Shown here: positions 349 through 5,721 of the stretch, piece after piece
Position numbering within the stretch: position 1 is the first letter of the stretch
Layout: each line of letters opens with the position of its first letter
Assembly (NCBI RefSeq): GCF_040546815.1
Contig: NZ_JBEPOO010000001.1
Span: 1,426,001 to 1,490,000 of the forward strand
Direction: 5' to 3'
Length of the DNA: 64,000 nt
Source of the DNA: Devosia sp. 2618
GTDB lineage: Bacteria; Pseudomonadota; Alphaproteobacteria; Rhizobiales; Devosiaceae
The notes under the pieces: generated by a model
Seen by the model: only the letters and a program-made list of their open reading frames with translations
Told to the model about the DNA's origin: nothing
The model's database searches: none
Made by a program: the position numbers and the translations under genes

Positions 349-531
349 CTCATTCAAGCATTGCTTATGAGTGGCGCAGACAGGGTAAGATAGCGTTTCA
401 TATAGATAATCACCGCCTGGTTCGCTGAACAATCGTTCGCGGGCCATTCCTCGTTTCCGCTCCATGGAACTGTCCGGCCGTGCTGTCGTTGACTGACGTC
501 ACTCAGGAAGTGGCGGCAAACAAGCGTCGGC

Positions 532-1374
532 ATGCCCAGTCAAAATTACACATCTCCACCGGCGGACGAATTCGCCATTTCGACAGCGGCCACAGACCTG
601 TGGTCCGTGCATCGCGCGTCATCACCGATCATCGGCACAGCTATCCACAATGGACACGCAGTGCGGGACGAACTCGCAAGCCTTATGGCGCTTGGTGAAT
701 CCGGGCGTCTGCGTGAAGAAGATCCCTTTACCGAGTACTTTATCCGCGACGTGCCGAACCGGGTGATCTTCCACCGCTCGCGATTCGAGATCGATCTTAA
801 CCGCGCCCGTGACGGCGCCGTGTACCTCACGCCCGAACAGGCTTGGGGCCTGCAGGTCTGGCAGCAGCAGCCGTCGGCAGAATTGGTCGAGCGCTCGCTG
901 CACTCCCACGATTCCTACTACGCGATGCTGTCGCAGCTCCTCTCCGGCATCGAAGTCGAGTTCGGCAGCTTCGTGGTGCTCGATATCCATAGCTACAACC
1001 ACCGCCGCGCCGGCCCAGACGCCGCTGCCACCACAGAAGCAGAGGCGCCGGTCATCAATATCGGTACCTTCTCCATGGACCGGGAGCGCTGGGCGGGCGT
1101 GCTCGATCCCTTCATGGACAGCATGCGCAGCTTCCAGTTTCGCGGGCAGGGCATGGACGTTCGCGAAAACATCGCCTTCGACGGAAGGGGCGAGCAGACC
1201 CGTTTCATCCATGAGCGATTCCCGCTGACGGGCTGCGCCATCGCCATCGAGTTCAAGAAGGTTTTCATGGATGAGTGGACCGGCGAACCTGACCAGGAAA
1301 CGTTGATCGCCTTCCGCCGCATGATCAAGGAATCGCTGCCGGTGCTTGAGCAAAGCCTTAAGGCCCGCGCATGA
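532..1374 (+). CDS. N-formylglutamate amidohydrolase family protein (cassette gene 1)
   Basis: A 280-residue cytosolic protein of the N-formylglutamate amidohydrolase fold, a zinc hydrolase family related to carboxypeptidases. Motifs seen are an N-terminal GTAIHNGH around residues 35-42, where the family has its first metal-binding His, then HRSRFEIDLNR at 81-91 with ARDGAVY after it, and DIHSYNHRR at 151-159, the second conserved metal/substrate block. The ATG at 532 keeps the whole first motif, although no strong Shine-Dalgarno site is visible. The stop overlaps the start of the next gene by ATGA, so the two are translationally coupled. The classical family member is HutG of histidine degradation, but no hut genes are near. 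Partnership with the QEGLA protein and the ATP-grasp ligase suggests a different amide or peptide-like substrate. Confidence 0.85.
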   Translation: MPSQNYTSPPADEFAISTAATDLWSVHRASSPIIGTAIHNGHAVRDELASLMALGESGRLREEDPFTEYFIRDVPNRVIFHRSRFEIDLNRARDGAVYLTPEQAWGLQVWQQQPSAELVERSLHSHDSYYAMLSQLLSGIEVEFGSFVVLDIHSYNHRRAGPDAAATTEAEAPVINIGTFSMDRERWAGVLDPFMDSMRSFQFRGQGMDVRENIAFDGRGEQTRFIHERFPLTGCAIAIEFKKVFMDEWTGEPDQETLIAFRRMIKESLPVLEQSLKARA

Positions 1375-3224
1375 GCCGGGGAGACGACGCCAAGCTGCTC
1401 GCAGAGATTGACGCGCTGCTAAAGGCCGGCGAACCAATCCGCCTGGATTTTGGCCGCGGCGAACGGCTGCATATCGACCGGCCTTTGCCGTTCCTGTTCG
1501 TTCAGGTCGGCCGCGCCAAGCACCCGGCTGCGCGCGACGTTGTGAGCTCCAACTCGTCCTATTTGTTGGTCGGCAGCGTGCCGCGCGCCAAGGCCATTGT
1601 TGAGCTAGTCGCTGCGAGCATGACCGAGCGTTTTGGAGCATTTGTCCTGCTCGACATTGGCGAGTTGGAACGCGATCGACTGGCCAGTGACGCGGACTAC
1701 CTCCCGCCGTTTGAAATGACGATTTCAGCTACTACCGACACAGGCGGCCAGGCCGCTCGGTCTGTGTTCACGGCCGCCACGGAAAAGGTGCACGCAAAAT
1801 TCCGCACGCCCAAGATTGCCCAACCGTCGATCACCGACGATCCGGCCGCCAAGCTGGCGCGGGCATTGCCAAAGCTGCCAGCGCTGACAGTTCGCTTTGC
1901 GCCAATCTATCGCGTGCCCGAATCCGATGCTGTCTATCCGCAACTGCTCGAACAACTGGTCGCCAATATCGTTGACGCGGGGCTGCAGGCCGCCGCTGCC
2001 TTTGCCGAGGCCACCAAGAGCCTCGCCATCTCGACACACCGCGCCCTGGGCCGGAAAGCCTTTATCGATGCAGTAAGCCGCGCCGATCGGGCGATTGACG
2101 ACGTAGCCCAATCCTTTGACTTTCTATTGGCCGTGACACCGATCAATGCGCGCGATGCCTGGGAGCAGTTCAAGGTCGCCGGCTTCGAGCGCGCTCCACG
2201 GCTCTTGTATCGCCCCCTGACAGTCGAAACAGACCTCCAGAAGAAGCGGCTGTTCTCCGTTGCGCTGGACCATTTCGAAGATCCGGTTCTGACAGCACTC
2301 TATCGAGAAAAGCAGCAGGAACTTGATCTGCAGCTGTCGCTGCTGGCGGCCCGCGAAACGCCGCGCTTCGTGGAATTGGGACGAGCGCTTTACGGTCGCG
2401 TGGAGCCGTCCCTTCTAAAAGCGGCCACCGATATTCTCGATGGTACCAAGTCGGAACGCGGCAAAAGCCAACCGCCGGGCGAGGATGCCGATTTCGCCTT
2501 TGTCGAGCGCAAGGCGCAGAGCATGATCAGTGGCTATGCGAGTGACTATGATGGCTTTTCGGCCAGCATCGAGCTGCGCGACGATCTGCCGGCCGGATTG
2601 ATGGTGTCTGGCGGGCGTCTCCTGATTTCCCGCAACACCACAATGGCAAAGACGCGCGTCGAAGCCTTGTTGAGCCATGAAGTCGGTGTGCACCTTCTGA
2701 CTTATTTCAATGGCTCGGCACAGGGCCTGCGCCTGTTCCGTTCCGGTCTTGCAGGCTACGAGGGCGTGCAGGAGGGGCTGGCTGTGCTCGCCGAATATCT
2801 GGTCGGCGGCATGACGTTGGGTCGTCTCAGGCTGATTGCCGCGCGCGTTGTTGCCTGCGCATCGATGCTTGAGGGCGCCAGCTTTGTCGATTGCTACCGT
2901 CAGGTTCGCGCCTTTGGGCTCGCGGAGTCGTCGGCGTTCAACCTGGTCATCCGGGTCTATCGTGGCGGCGGCCTTGCCAAGGATGCAATCTACCTGCGCG
3001 GGCTGCTCGAGATTTTGAGCCATCTGCGGGCAGGGGGCGCGCTTGGCCCATTCTGGATGGGCAAGATCGCAGCATCCCATTTCAGCATCATTCAGGAGTT
3101 GAGCACGCGCGGCCTGTTGCGGGCGCCGCGCCTGATACCTGCCTTCATGTCCCACCCAGAAGCTGAAGCCCGGCTTTGCAAAGCCGCCGTCGGCATGACG
3201 CCAATCGAAATGATCACCACCTAG
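1371..3224 (+). CDS. DUF1704 / QEGLA-motif metallopeptidase-like protein (cassette gene 2)
   Basis: A 617-residue protein of the DUF1704 family, often annotated 'flavohemoglobin expression-modulating QEGLA motif protein'. The C-terminal half holds the signature: HEVGVH at residues 436-441 (an HExxxH zinc motif) followed by QEGLA at 467-471, whose Glu468 is the expected third metal ligand. This is the same arrangement as in the eukaryotic MATCAP tyrosine carboxypeptidases, which belong to this family. A metallo-carboxypeptidase-like activity is therefore likely, but the bacterial substrate is unknown. Residues 1 to about 130 form a separate N-terminal region that I cannot assign. The start overlaps the upstream gene by 4 bp, and the next gene begins 10 bp after the stop. 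No signal peptide is seen. Confidence 0.88.
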   Translation: MSRGDDAKLLAEIDALLKAGEPIRLDFGRGERLHIDRPLPFLFVQVGRAKHPAARDVVSSNSSYLLVGSVPRAKAIVELVAASMTERFGAFVLLDIGELERDRLASDADYLPPFEMTISATTDTGGQAARSVFTAATEKVHAKFRTPKIAQPSITDDPAAKLARALPKLPALTVRFAPIYRVPESDAVYPQLLEQLVANIVDAGLQAAAAFAEATKSLAISTHRALGRKAFIDAVSRADRAIDDVAQSFDFLLAVTPINARDAWEQFKVAGFERAPRLLYRPLTVETDLQKKRLFSVALDHFEDPVLTALYREKQQELDLQLSLLAARETPRFVELGRALYGRVEPSLLKAATDILDGTKSERGKSQPPGEDADFAFVERKAQSMISGYASDYDGFSASIELRDDLPAGLMVSGGRLLISRNTTMAKTRVEALLSHEVGVHLLTYFNGSAQGLRLFRSGLAGYEGVQEGLAVLAEYLVGGMTLGRLRLIAARVVACASMLEGASFVDCYRQVRAFGLAESSAFNLVIRVYRGGGLAKDAIYLRGLLEILSHLRAGGALGPFWMGKIAASHFSIIQELSTRGLLRAPRLIPAFMSHPEAEARLCKAAVGMTPIEMITT

Positions 3225-3234
3225 GAGCCTCAAA

Positions 3235-4281
3235 ATGCGCATCGCGTTCTTCGTCAACTCGATCAGCGGCGAGACCCCAAACTACTCCACAACGCATCTG
3301 GCGCTGGCTGCACTCAATCGTGGCCACAATATCTGCTACGTGACGCCTGGGGATTTCGTGCTGCGCCCGGATGACACGCTGGTGGTGCGGGCGCTGGTTT
3401 TGCCCTCCACAAAATACAAGAAGGCCGAAACGCTGCACAAAGACCTGCAGGGCGACGCCCCGATCATCCAGACCATCGACGTCACCGACATCGACATTTT
3501 GCTGCTGCGCAACGATCCGTCTGAAGATGCCGCTGACCGCCCTTGGGCGGCAAATGTCGGCACGGTGTTTGGCCGCATGGCAGCGGCGCGCGGCGTCATT
3601 GTGCTCAACGACCCCGACGGCTTGGCCCAGGCGCAGAACAAACTCTACTTCCAGGATTTTCCAGCGTCTGTCCGGCCAGAAACTCTGATCTCCAAAAGCA
3701 TTGAAGAGATACGCAGCTTTATCTACGGCCAGCCCAAGGGCGTCATCCTCAAGCCCTTGCAGGGTTCGGGCGGCAAGAACGTCTTTAAGATCGCCTCGCC
3801 AAAAGATTCCAATCTCAATCAGATTTTTGAGGCCGTAAGCGGCGAAGGCTACCTCATCGCTCAGGGCTTCATGCCTGCCGCAGCAGAGGGCGACGTGCGC
3901 TTTTTCCTGATGAACGGCGTCCCACTACAGCGCGACGGACGGCACGCCGCCTTCCGCCGCGCGCCGGCCAAGGGCGAGATTCGCTCCAATATCCACGCCG
4001 GGGGGAGCGCCGAGACCATCACCGTCACCGACACCATGCTCGCCATTGCCGAAACGGTGCGGCCGAAGCTGGTGCAGGATGGGATGTTTCTTGTCGGCCT
4101 CGATATCGTGGGAGACAAGTTGTTGGAGATCAACGTCTTCACGCCGGGCGGGCTGAGCAATCTGTCTCAAATGTATGAGACAGATTTTACCCTGTCGGTG
4201 ATCGAGGCGCTTGAAAACAAGGTCGCTATTCGCGCCAATTACCGTGGCACGATCGGCAATCGACAGCTGGCAACGCTGTGA
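3235..4281 (+). CDS. GshB/RimK-type ATP-grasp ligase (cassette gene 3)
   Basis: A 348-residue ATP-grasp enzyme resembling glutathione synthetase. It has an N-terminal pre-ATP-grasp Rossmann domain (MRIAFFVNSI at the start) and ATP-binding Lys173 in GVILKP with the Gly-rich loop GSGGKN at 177-182. RSNIHAGG at 250-257 corresponds to the GshB mobile Arg/Gly loop, and the Mg ligands fall in GLDIVGDKLLEIN around Asp290, Glu298 and Asn300. Such enzymes join a carboxylate to an amine through an acyl-phosphate. It follows the QEGLA gene by 10 bp with AGGAG as ribosome site. Position and divergence from canonical GshB point to a dedicated ligase of this cassette rather than the cell's glutathione synthetase, but a glutathione role cannot be excluded. 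Confidence 0.87.
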   Translation: MRIAFFVNSISGETPNYSTTHLALAALNRGHNICYVTPGDFVLRPDDTLVVRALVLPSTKYKKAETLHKDLQGDAPIIQTIDVTDIDILLLRNDPSEDAADRPWAANVGTVFGRMAAARGVIVLNDPDGLAQAQNKLYFQDFPASVRPETLISKSIEEIRSFIYGQPKGVILKPLQGSGGKNVFKIASPKDSNLNQIFEAVSGEGYLIAQGFMPAAAEGDVRFFLMNGVPLQRDGRHAAFRRAPAKGEIRSNIHAGGSAETITVTDTMLAIAETVRPKLVQDGMFLVGLDIVGDKLLEINVFTPGGLSNLSQMYETDFTLSVIEALENKVAIRANYRGTIGNRQLATL

Positions 4282-4375
4282 TCGGCTTCATTTCGCCGTG
4301 AAGCGGCTGATCTGATCGACCTGCAGGCCCATATAAAGAACACCAAAGCACACATCGACCAACAAGGTTCGTCCC

Positions 4376-5107
4376 ATGCGCAATGCTCAAGCTACTGTCG
4401 CCACGTCGTCCATAGTTTGGCGTGCCACTCTCGCGTCATTTTTGATCCTGCCCGCTCTGGCGTTTGGCCTGTTCGGACATCCGGCTGCAGCACAGGAGGC
4501 GGCTGTCGTCATTCCCGCACCGACGGCCGATATAGCCGACACGGGAACGACAGCAACGGCAGTGTTTGCCGGCGGATGCTTTTGGGGCGTGCAGGGCGTG
4601 TTTCAGCATGTCGTCGGCGTGACCAACGCTGTGTCAGGCTACTCGGGCGGGGCCGCCGACACCGCGACCTATGATCAGACCAGCAGCGGCACGACCGGCC
4701 ATGCCGAGACGGTTCAGGTGACTTATGACCCCTCGGTGGTGAGCTATGGCGATCTGCTGCAGATCTATTTCTCGGTGGCGCACAATCCGACGCAGTTGAA
4801 TTATCAGGGGCCGGACCACGGCACGCAGTATCGCTCGACCATCTTTGCTCTCAATGATGACCAGGCCAAAACGGCCAAGGCCTATATTGCCCAGCTTGAC
4901 GATGCGCATCTGTTTGAAGGCCCAATCGTTACCACCATCGAACCCTTCAAGGCCTTCTACCCTGCCGAGCAGTATCATCAGGATTTCCTGACGCTGAACC
5001 CAACCTGGCCTTACATCGTGATCAATGACCTTCCCAAGGTTGCTGCGTTGAAGGCCCTGTTTCCCAAACAGTATCGCGAAGACCCTGTTTTGGTCGGCAC
5101 TCTCTAA
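4376..5107 (+). CDS. msrA: Peptide methionine-(S)-S-oxide reductase, exported
   Basis: A 243-residue MsrA that repairs the S-epimer of methionine sulfoxide in proteins. The catalytic motif GGCFWG puts the nucleophilic Cys at residue 68. The family's GYSGG, HAETVQV and H(N)PTQLNYQGPDHGTQYRS blocks follow. Residues 1-40 are a long Sec signal ending APAAAQ-like (GHPAAAQEA), so it acts in the periplasm, unlike the cytosolic enzyme. No MsrB domain is fused and no msrB or msrPQ is adjacent. It begins 94 bp after the ATP-grasp gene and probably has its own promoter. Confidence 0.94.
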   Translation: MRNAQATVATSSIVWRATLASFLILPALAFGLFGHPAAAQEAAVVIPAPTADIADTGTTATAVFAGGCFWGVQGVFQHVVGVTNAVSGYSGGAADTATYDQTSSGTTGHAETVQVTYDPSVVSYGDLLQIYFSVAHNPTQLNYQGPDHGTQYRSTIFALNDDQAKTAKAYIAQLDDAHLFEGPIVTTIEPFKAFYPAEQYHQDFLTLNPTWPYIVINDLPKVAALKALFPKQYREDPVLVGTL

Positions 5108-5178
5108 GAAGCGCGATTGGGAACTAGCACGTCGACGTAACGTTGAGATCGCGAGACTCCTTCGGCAAGGACACAACG

Positions 5179-5721
5179 ATGCGCCAGTTCTTTACAATCG
5201 CCGTTGCTGCCCTCGCGGCCACTCTCACGTTGGGAGGAGCGTTTGCGGCAGATGCGATTACAGTGCCGACCAGTTCGGCTGACGCCATACCGGTCTCAGA
5301 GGGTGGATTTGACTGGAGCGGCTTTTATGCCGGTGTTTTCGCAGGTGCACAGCGCCCCGGCGGCGGGGACACCCAGTTGGGCCTCGGCATACAGGCTGGC
5401 ATCAACGCCCAGTTCGATTTCTATCTTGTTGGCCTTGAACTCGCTGTGCAGGGCCTGTCAGGTAGCGTCGGCGAAACCAGCTATGGCCAGATCCTGGGAC
5501 GCGCAGGGCTGGTCGTCACCGATGACGTCCTCGTCTATGCGGCGGGCGGCTATGGAATCGATCTGGGGCCATCGCAAGACCAGAATGTCTTGATCGGCGG
5601 CGGCGTGGAACTGGCAGTGACGGACATCGTCACAGTCGACGCCCAATATCTGCACGGTTTTCCGACAGATGGCGGTGCCGCCAACGACCAATTCACGATT
5701 GGCGCCAACTTCCACTTCTGA
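5179..5721 (+). CDS. Small outer-membrane beta-barrel protein
   Basis: A 180-residue exported protein. The signal peptide is MRQFFTIAVAALAATLTLGGAFAADA, followed by the Omp25/Omp31-type entry motif FDWSGFYAGV. The rest alternates polar and hydrophobic residues as in beta strands, and the chain ends in HF, the aromatic C-terminus used by the BAM assembly machinery. The ATG at 5179 is chosen because AAGGA (5167-5171) sits 7 bases upstream; an in-frame start 36 bases earlier would put charged residues in front of the signal. It is paralogous to the next gene (shared VLVYA, GGGVELAVTD and terminal F). It is shorter than typical Omp25 proteins, so perhaps 8 strands. Confidence 0.8.
   Translation: MRQFFTIAVAALAATLTLGGAFAADAITVPTSSADAIPVSEGGFDWSGFYAGVFAGAQRPGGGDTQLGLGIQAGINAQFDFYLVGLELAVQGLSGSVGETSYGQILGRAGLVVTDDVLVYAAGGYGIDLGPSQDQNVLIGGGVELAVTDIVTVDAQYLHGFPTDGGAANDQFTIGANFHF

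Follow-up and report, generated by a model that had tools for sequence, protein, structure and literature searches.

A GshB-like ATP-grasp ligase, a MATCAP-type peptidase and an FGase-like hydrolase form an accessory gene cassette in Devosia and other bacteria, with a possible role in writing and erasing amide bonds

What do three adjacent genes do together in a 64,000-nucleotide stretch of Devosia sp. 2618 (contig NZ_JBEPOO010000001.1, positions 1,426,001 to 1,490,000 of the forward strand; this whole stretch is called the window hereafter)? They encode a metallohydrolase resembling N-formylglutamate amidohydrolase (FGase), a metallopeptidase with the QEGLA motif and an ATP-grasp ligase. The answer proposed here, held tentatively and at somewhat less than an even chance, is that they constitute an accessory, probably stress-induced 'write and erase' system for amide bonds. 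The relevant features of the window are as follows.

466..490, + strand: EcfG-type promoter-like site GGAAC-N16-CGTT, 41 bases before the FGase start
532..1374, + strand: FGase-like metallohydrolase gene, 280 aa; N-formylglutamate amidohydrolase fold, M14-carboxypeptidase-like
646-657, + strand: HNGH motif, FGase residues 39-42
778-804, + strand: SRFEIDLNR motif of the FGase-like gene
982-1008, + strand: DIHSYNHRR motif, FGase residues 151-159
1371..3224, + strand: QEGLA (MATCAP-type) metallopeptidase gene, 617 aa, two domains; PF08014 and TIGR02421
1452..2015, + strand: first domain of the QEGLA protein, residues 28-215; degenerate FGase/M14-like, without HNGH and DxHS motifs
2124..3218, + strand: second domain of the QEGLA protein, residues 252-616; MATCAP fold
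2676-2693, + strand: HEVGVH, QEGLA protein residues 436-441
2769-2783, + strand: QEGLA motif, QEGLA protein residues 467-471
3235..4281, + strand: GshB-like ATP-grasp ligase gene, cassette type I, 348 aa; NF009110

The FGase and QEGLA open reading frames (ORFs) overlap by 4 nt, and each gene exceeds the Pfam cut-off of its family, namely FGase (PF05013; 79.4 bits versus 28.9) for the first, MATCAP (PF08014, presumably the family formerly named DUF1704; 307.2 bits versus 27) for the second, and GSH-S_ATP (PF02955; 173 bits versus 23) for the third. A preliminary description of this DNA had reported three overlapping or adjacent genes with intact motifs, with which the ORFs, the Pfam scores and the conserved motif residues agree. 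It mentioned neither the promoter-like site (466-490) nor the resemblance of the first half of the QEGLA protein to FGase.

The first gene product belongs to the FGase superfamily by both the PF05013 cut-off and its fold. Its residues H39, H42, D151 and H153 were invariant in 23 aligned FGase rows, the alignment excluding the FGases of loci L026, L032, L033 and L036-L040. Two other FGases, encoded elsewhere in this genome, score higher against the family (254 and 147.8 bits); in a separate FGase motif alignment, which covered the fusions described below, these two were badly truncated and left unused. Although family and fold are common to the cassette protein and the N-formylglutamate deformylase HutG, identity with HutG was rejected, the TIGR02017 equivalog model giving 21.7 bits versus a cut-off of 278.75. 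Searches of the cassette FGase against Protein Data Bank sequences with phmmer and hmmsearch returned no FGase match, although a fold search did find one. FGase-family enzymes act on small N-acyl amino acids, as is established for HutG.

The second gene product passes the cut-off of TIGR02421 (360.2 versus 338.65 bits) and is thereby a member, by score, of the 'flavohemoglobin expression-modulating QEGLA motif protein' family; searches of the open-licence literature, outside which most subscription journals lie, found no support for the flavohemoglobin link in that name. Its structure model (pLDDT 88.8) was compared with MATCAP, as the preliminary description had proposed, and the curated cut-offs, the HExxxH motif with a downstream Glu and the MATCAP fold all place it in the MATCAP/DUF1704 family. 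Indeed, H436, E437, H441 and E468 were invariant in 43 aligned QEGLA rows. MATCAP structures were released in 2022, and in humans the TMCP/MATCAP enzymes trim residues from the C-terminus and shorten chains of glutamate while sparing the branch point, according to the available text of PMC10499314. By analogy, the MATCAP domain of the cassette is a predicted metallocarboxypeptidase.

The third gene product raises the possibility of a stress isozyme of glutathione synthesis, in which the ligase would be a second GshB and the hydrolases would break down and recycle glutathione or gamma-glutamyl peptides. Public records label the ligase as glutathione synthase or synthetase, it passes NF009110, a subfamily model named glutathione synthetase (467.5 bits versus a cut-off of 408), and it keeps the fold and the ATP-grasp/ATP-binding residues of GshB. 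However, it misses both GshB equivalog cut-offs (TIGR01380, 196.5 versus 299.05 bits; NF003573, 210.2 versus 272 bits), another GshB (251.8 bits) is encoded elsewhere in the same genome, and the annotated regions show no gshA next to the cassette. Furthermore, in a tree of 38 type I and 8 type II cassette ligases (type II being the second cassette type introduced below) and the GshB from 9 cassette-bearing genomes, the window's included, the 9 GshB sequences formed one clade with support 100 and without any cassette enzyme. The GshB loop INVTSPT also differs, reading INVFTPGG in the window ligase and INVFTPGG, VNVLSPGG or close variants across cassettes. On the equivalog cut-offs, the tree and this loop, the glutathione isozyme was set aside as first choice and is considered improbable; judged by cut-off and tree, the cassette ligase is GshB-like but not GshB. 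The preliminary description had left room for an ATP-grasp gene grouping with the organism's only GshB, which the separate GshB and the separate clade contradict. The type I clade itself was weak to moderate (80 by IQ-TREE, 0.43 by FastTree), and the type II ligases grouped with GshB instead of type I (support 95), the window enzyme lying outside that wider clade; type I and type II ligases may therefore have separate origins. The cassette ligase was nearer to GshB (1gsa, E value of 6.4e-61) than to RimK (about 2e-21); a separate search matched 1gsa at 3.4e-35.

That the three genes belong together is indicated by their distribution. A scan of genome contigs gave 24 loci with a QEGLA protein, mainly in Hyphomicrobiales and also in Brevundimonas, sphingomonads, Lysobacter, Luteimonas and one Kiritimatiellae metagenome-assembled genome (MAG), and the triple was present in order in 23 of them; the exception, L029, sits at a contig end and starts part-way through the QEGLA gene. 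In the Sphingomicrobium MAG locus L028 (8001-9431), the QEGLA gene was matched in two pieces in different frames, reflecting a break or an assembly error. The triple was also retrieved from all five annotated Hyphomicrobiales plasmid regions (Sinorhizobium meliloti pSymB, Mesorhizobium, Shinella, Aminobacter and Pararhizobium), in a different setting each time; in S. meliloti 2011 (L041), all three genes lie on pSymB. The overlap between the FGase and QEGLA genes was exactly 4 nt in 23 of 30 three-gene loci, the other seven values being -14, -11, -8, -8, 25, 785 (L026, a faulty ORF call) and 476 (L028, the QEGLA gene in two pieces). Among 150 genomes of the order, QEGLA occurred in three, and exactly those three passed the NF009110 cut-off of 408 bits, the next score being 231.7. 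Similarly, 11 of 61 relatives carried QEGLA (11/37 of the same genus and 0/24 of the others), and the same 11 hold a cassette-type ATP-grasp scoring >510 bits, followed by 232.5. Hence, the cassette is accessory, even inside the genus. When 398 genomes of the phylum were searched with the ATP-grasp profile, 14 of them yielded a total of 16 matches above 412 bits (lowest 412.0), the next score being 231.8; 15 of the 16 directly adjoin QEGLA, and the remaining one (G377) starts 48 bases into its contig. The co-occurrence of the three families called for in the preliminary description was thus recovered in 23/24 loci and, for ligase and QEGLA, in the same 3/150 genomes; with the triple spread across many genera, the linkage is not confined to one genome.

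For ligase and QEGLA, strict linkage, as foreseen in the same description, held within the order and genus sets; beyond them it was looser, some gammaproteobacterial cassettes being partial and a MATCAP-type gene without the cassette ligase occurring in 34 of the 47 phylum genomes with QEGLA. These ligase-free genes are mostly short (about 390-570 aa as open frames; 384-468 aa as called ORFs among those opened), except for a 702-aa ORF in G313. In L097 of G550, a RimK gene and a short MATCAP-type gene (3043-3948 and 4265-5617) are divergent; RimK was rejected as a regular neighbour of short MATCAP genes, as the two are not adjacent in G620, G590 and G479 of the same genus. Four gammaproteobacterial plasmid regions lack the triple, L042 having a lone FGase-MATCAP fusion, L043 a ligase with a fusion, and L044 and L045 only a short MATCAP gene.

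This fusion defines a second cassette type (type II), found in Vibrio, Photobacterium and several further genomes, in which the FGase domain stands in front of MATCAP in one protein. Both domains were recognized by Pfam in all six fusion proteins tested. Eight of nine fusion loci (5/6 of those tested with Pfam) have the ATP-grasp gene immediately upstream, the exception being Vibrio sp. HDW18 (L042), with no ATP-grasp nearby. DxHSYN is kept in 7/9 fusions; the two with an FGase half devoid of it are L042 7269-9260 (HDW18) and L082 7998-9980. Since FGase and MATCAP are fused in one lineage and encoded by overlapping genes in another, there is good reason to think that the two hydrolases cooperate.

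A link with stress is suggested by the site at 466-490, which follows the consensus for the general stress response sigma factor EcfG in the available text of PMC3892343 and PMC7083833. A site of the form GGAAC-N16/17-CGTT before the first gene, as sought for the EcfG regulon, was present within 250 bp upstream of 15 of 26 alphaproteobacterial cassettes (8/8 Devosia, 7/18 others), with 0.0066 sites expected per 250-bp stretch from the background of the same loci; rougher gene starts gave 13/29. The count of 26 leaves out L029, L032 and L033 (no upstream DNA) and the type II loci L079 and L091, and only 91 bases lie upstream in L013. Ten further loci of the same genus all had the site; with four of these being DNA already counted, the total becomes 14/14 Devosia loci (L007 and L119 having identical site sequences). 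Locus L128 of another genus, from the same genome as L090, lacked it, making 7/19 for the other alphaproteobacterial loci. The site was found in 0/4 non-alphaproteobacterial loci, which fits the exclusive occurrence of EcfG in Alphaproteobacteria (available text of PMC3892343). Genome-wide, the pattern occurred 68 times versus 97 for a reversed-pattern control and is not enriched, so that the site carries weight only by its position and conservation. The NepR gene of the genome is surrounded by six EcfG-type sites within about 9 kb. Position and conservation together suggest that the cassette is probably stress-induced via this site. In the available text of papers on alphaproteobacterial stress sigma factors, the cassette was not found by annotated gene names, a search that would miss a hypothetical-protein label and that does not extend to supplements.

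The window contains further EcfG-type sites, one on the + strand (5120-5144) just after msrA and either ahead of an ORF that ends at 5721 or at its beginning, and four on the - strand. The msrA gene itself (4376-5107), located downstream of the cassette, was rejected as a fourth cassette gene, since the window aside it lies beside the cassette in only 1 of 30 loci searched (L006), a second match (L019) being about 3.5 kb beyond it. A LysR gene similar to the neighbour of the Vibrio cassette occurs within 0.3 to 3.4 kb of the cassette in 10/58 loci of both cassette types (L042, L043, L078, L083, L084, L085, L087, L089, L091 and L111). The nine matches other than the Vibrio query are 28-44% identical, and L038 has a weak match 4.4 kb away. 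The Vibrio gene, presumably HdfR-like, is separated from the cassette in L042 by an annotated maoP gene. It may represent a regulator outside Alphaproteobacteria or a marker of a shared chromosomal site.

Among the matches listed in the open-licence literature, which leaves most subscription journals outside, no functional study of the bacterial family or of the cassette was found. A survey of amidoligases with ATP-grasp domains by Iyer and colleagues (Molecular BioSystems, 2009) may already describe the gene association, so that the association itself is not claimed as unpublished.

Two expression and comparative data sets do contain cassette-like pairs. In Photobacterium damselae grown at 1% versus 3% NaCl, A0J47_RS17020 'GshB' was upregulated 38.42-fold and RS17025 'QEGLA' 27.51-fold (available text of PMC10308900). 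Given the gene order in a related Photobacterium (L043) and the adjoining tags, this 'GshB' is most likely the cassette ligase, so that A0J47_RS17020, discussed in print as glutathione synthase GshB, is probably a cassette gene by tag adjacency. In addition, the Vibrio vulnificus pair VV2_1203 (COG3930) and VV2_1204 (glutathione synthetase) appears, without further discussion, in a table of clade-specific genes in the available part of PMC3091676.

A low-salt setting is also known for the Rlo system of Pseudomonas. The available text of PMC12239564 describes RloA proteases that cut poly-glutamate and that cells require to survive in low-salt medium, and RimK/RimB and Rlo as systems coupling an ATP-grasp protein with a protease cutting poly-Glu. 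As in the cassette, the ATP-grasp proteins of RimK-RimB and Rlo are encoded with a peptidase and linked to stress; however, their peptidases are retropepsins, whereas the cassette encodes a MATCAP metallopeptidase and an FGase-fold hydrolase, and their ligases are of the PF14397 or RimK type, whereas that of the cassette is GshB-like (PF02955). Rlo comprises the retropepsin RloA, the inactive-transglutaminase protein RloB (PF14402) and the ATP-grasp protein RloC (PF14397). The cassette ligase scores 17.3 against PF14397, versus a cut-off of 31.4, and does not belong to Rlo. In one gammaproteobacterial group (genus g329), rloA-rloB-rloC directly follows the cassette ATP-grasp gene (L089 3765-7954; L109 4461-8606; L112 36-4123). 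Pfam identified rloA (PF05618), rloB (PF14400 and PF14402) and rloC (PF14397) in L089 and L109, and rloA and rloC in L112, where rloB was retrieved by genome search; judged by coordinates, the same adjacency probably exists in G380 C47. A further rival is a purely degradative pathway for poly- or oligo-glutamate-like material, coupled to Rlo in some lineages, with the ATP-grasp enzyme salvaging the released fragments. That pathway is hardly to be expected, as the annotated loci have no uptake gene in common and fold matches of the level found here are common among M14-like enzymes.

According to the write-and-erase proposal, the ATP-grasp enzyme would use ATP to activate a carboxyl group and attach an amino acid or a short peptide (glutamate-like, judging by the analogous systems) to an acceptor, which may be a small peptide or the tail of a protein. 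The added chain would be shortened from its C-terminus by the MATCAP domain, and the FGase-like enzyme would take off the last or a differently linked residue. The FGase-like domain at the front of the QEGLA protein, itself dead, probably serves to bind substrate or to dock the real FGase. The balance between ligase and hydrolases under stress would then set the level of modification. One enzyme making an amide or peptide bond and two trimming or recycling it is what the preliminary description had put forward; linkage, folds and catalytic residues support this in part, and the writing and erasing roles are inferred. Among possible analogies, RimK/RimB, Rlo and the enzymes acting on eukaryotic tubulin tails (TTL/TTLL ligases, MATCAP/TMCP and CCP carboxypeptidases) come nearest, without a claim of membership. 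A more specific version, a bacterial counterpart of the tubulin-tail code, would be a stress-induced operon with three enzyme classes reversibly modifying a protein or peptide tail, the ATP-grasp writing, MATCAP shortening the chain, and the M14-like FGase removing the last or branch-point residue; this version is rather unlikely.

Biosynthesis of one small peptide-like metabolite, for instance a compatible solute or a protective dipeptide, is nearly as likely as writing and erasing, although still doubtful. All three steps would then lead to the product, with nothing erased; the ATP-grasp would make the bond, and the FGase-like and MATCAP enzymes would process an intermediate or remove a protecting group. 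The stress-type promoter and the low-salinity induction of the P. damselae pair suit a solute, GshB as the closest relative of the ligase handles small peptides, and the FGase family handles small N-acyl amino acids. Against this, the five annotated plasmid loci share no transporter, acyltransferase or amino-acid-making enzyme, and two hydrolases per ligase are unusual for pure synthesis. Moreover, the MATCAP relatives of known function act on protein tails (available text of PMC10499314).

Several observations count against the write-and-erase reading. The known substrates of FGase-family enzymes are small N-acyl amino acids and not proteins, and the greater nearness of the ligase to GshB than to RimK favours a small acceptor; by analogy, the likeness to GshB leans towards a small peptide and the likeness to MATCAP towards a protein tail. 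No conserved acceptor or precursor gene was seen beside the cassette in the annotated neighbourhoods, plasmid regions included, which leaves the acceptor a guess. The type I and type II ligases did not group in a single clade, and most phylum genomes with a MATCAP-type gene lack the cassette ligase, as described above. The long QEGLA gene of L088 stands alone, both partners being absent from 16 kb of sequence, no FGase is present in the part of L111 covered, and the FGase lies 1.5-2 kb from QEGLA in L087 and L110 (the FGases of L087 and L090 were found by tblastn). The S. meliloti cassette (L036) lacks the promoter site. Lastly, the rlo adjacency is limited to one genus-level group, and PF14402 (rloB) was unmatched in 9 of 16 cassette genomes searched, that of the window included, which makes the rlo link a lineage-specific hint.

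Operons combining a ligase with a peptidase are already known in kind. What is new to the authors is the system as described, with a GshB-like ATP-grasp, a MATCAP protein bearing a pseudo-FGase domain, an FGase, a fused form and a stress-type promoter. The names glutathione synthase, formylglutamate hydrolase and flavohemoglobin modulator are probably misleading for cassette genes, and one such label, 'glutathione synthase' in a salinity study, is probably in print. MATCAP has only recently become known as a tubulin carboxypeptidase, and the cassette gives the bacterial family a genetic setting, in which it has a dedicated ligase, a hydrolase partner (in some cases fused to it) and a stress-type promoter. 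With the triple on pSymB of S. meliloti 2011, the role of bacterial MATCAP is testable in a host that is tractable and non-pathogenic. If the cassette is indeed a bacterial counterpart of the tubulin-tail code, its MATCAP part would help to show the origin of the eukaryotic enzyme.

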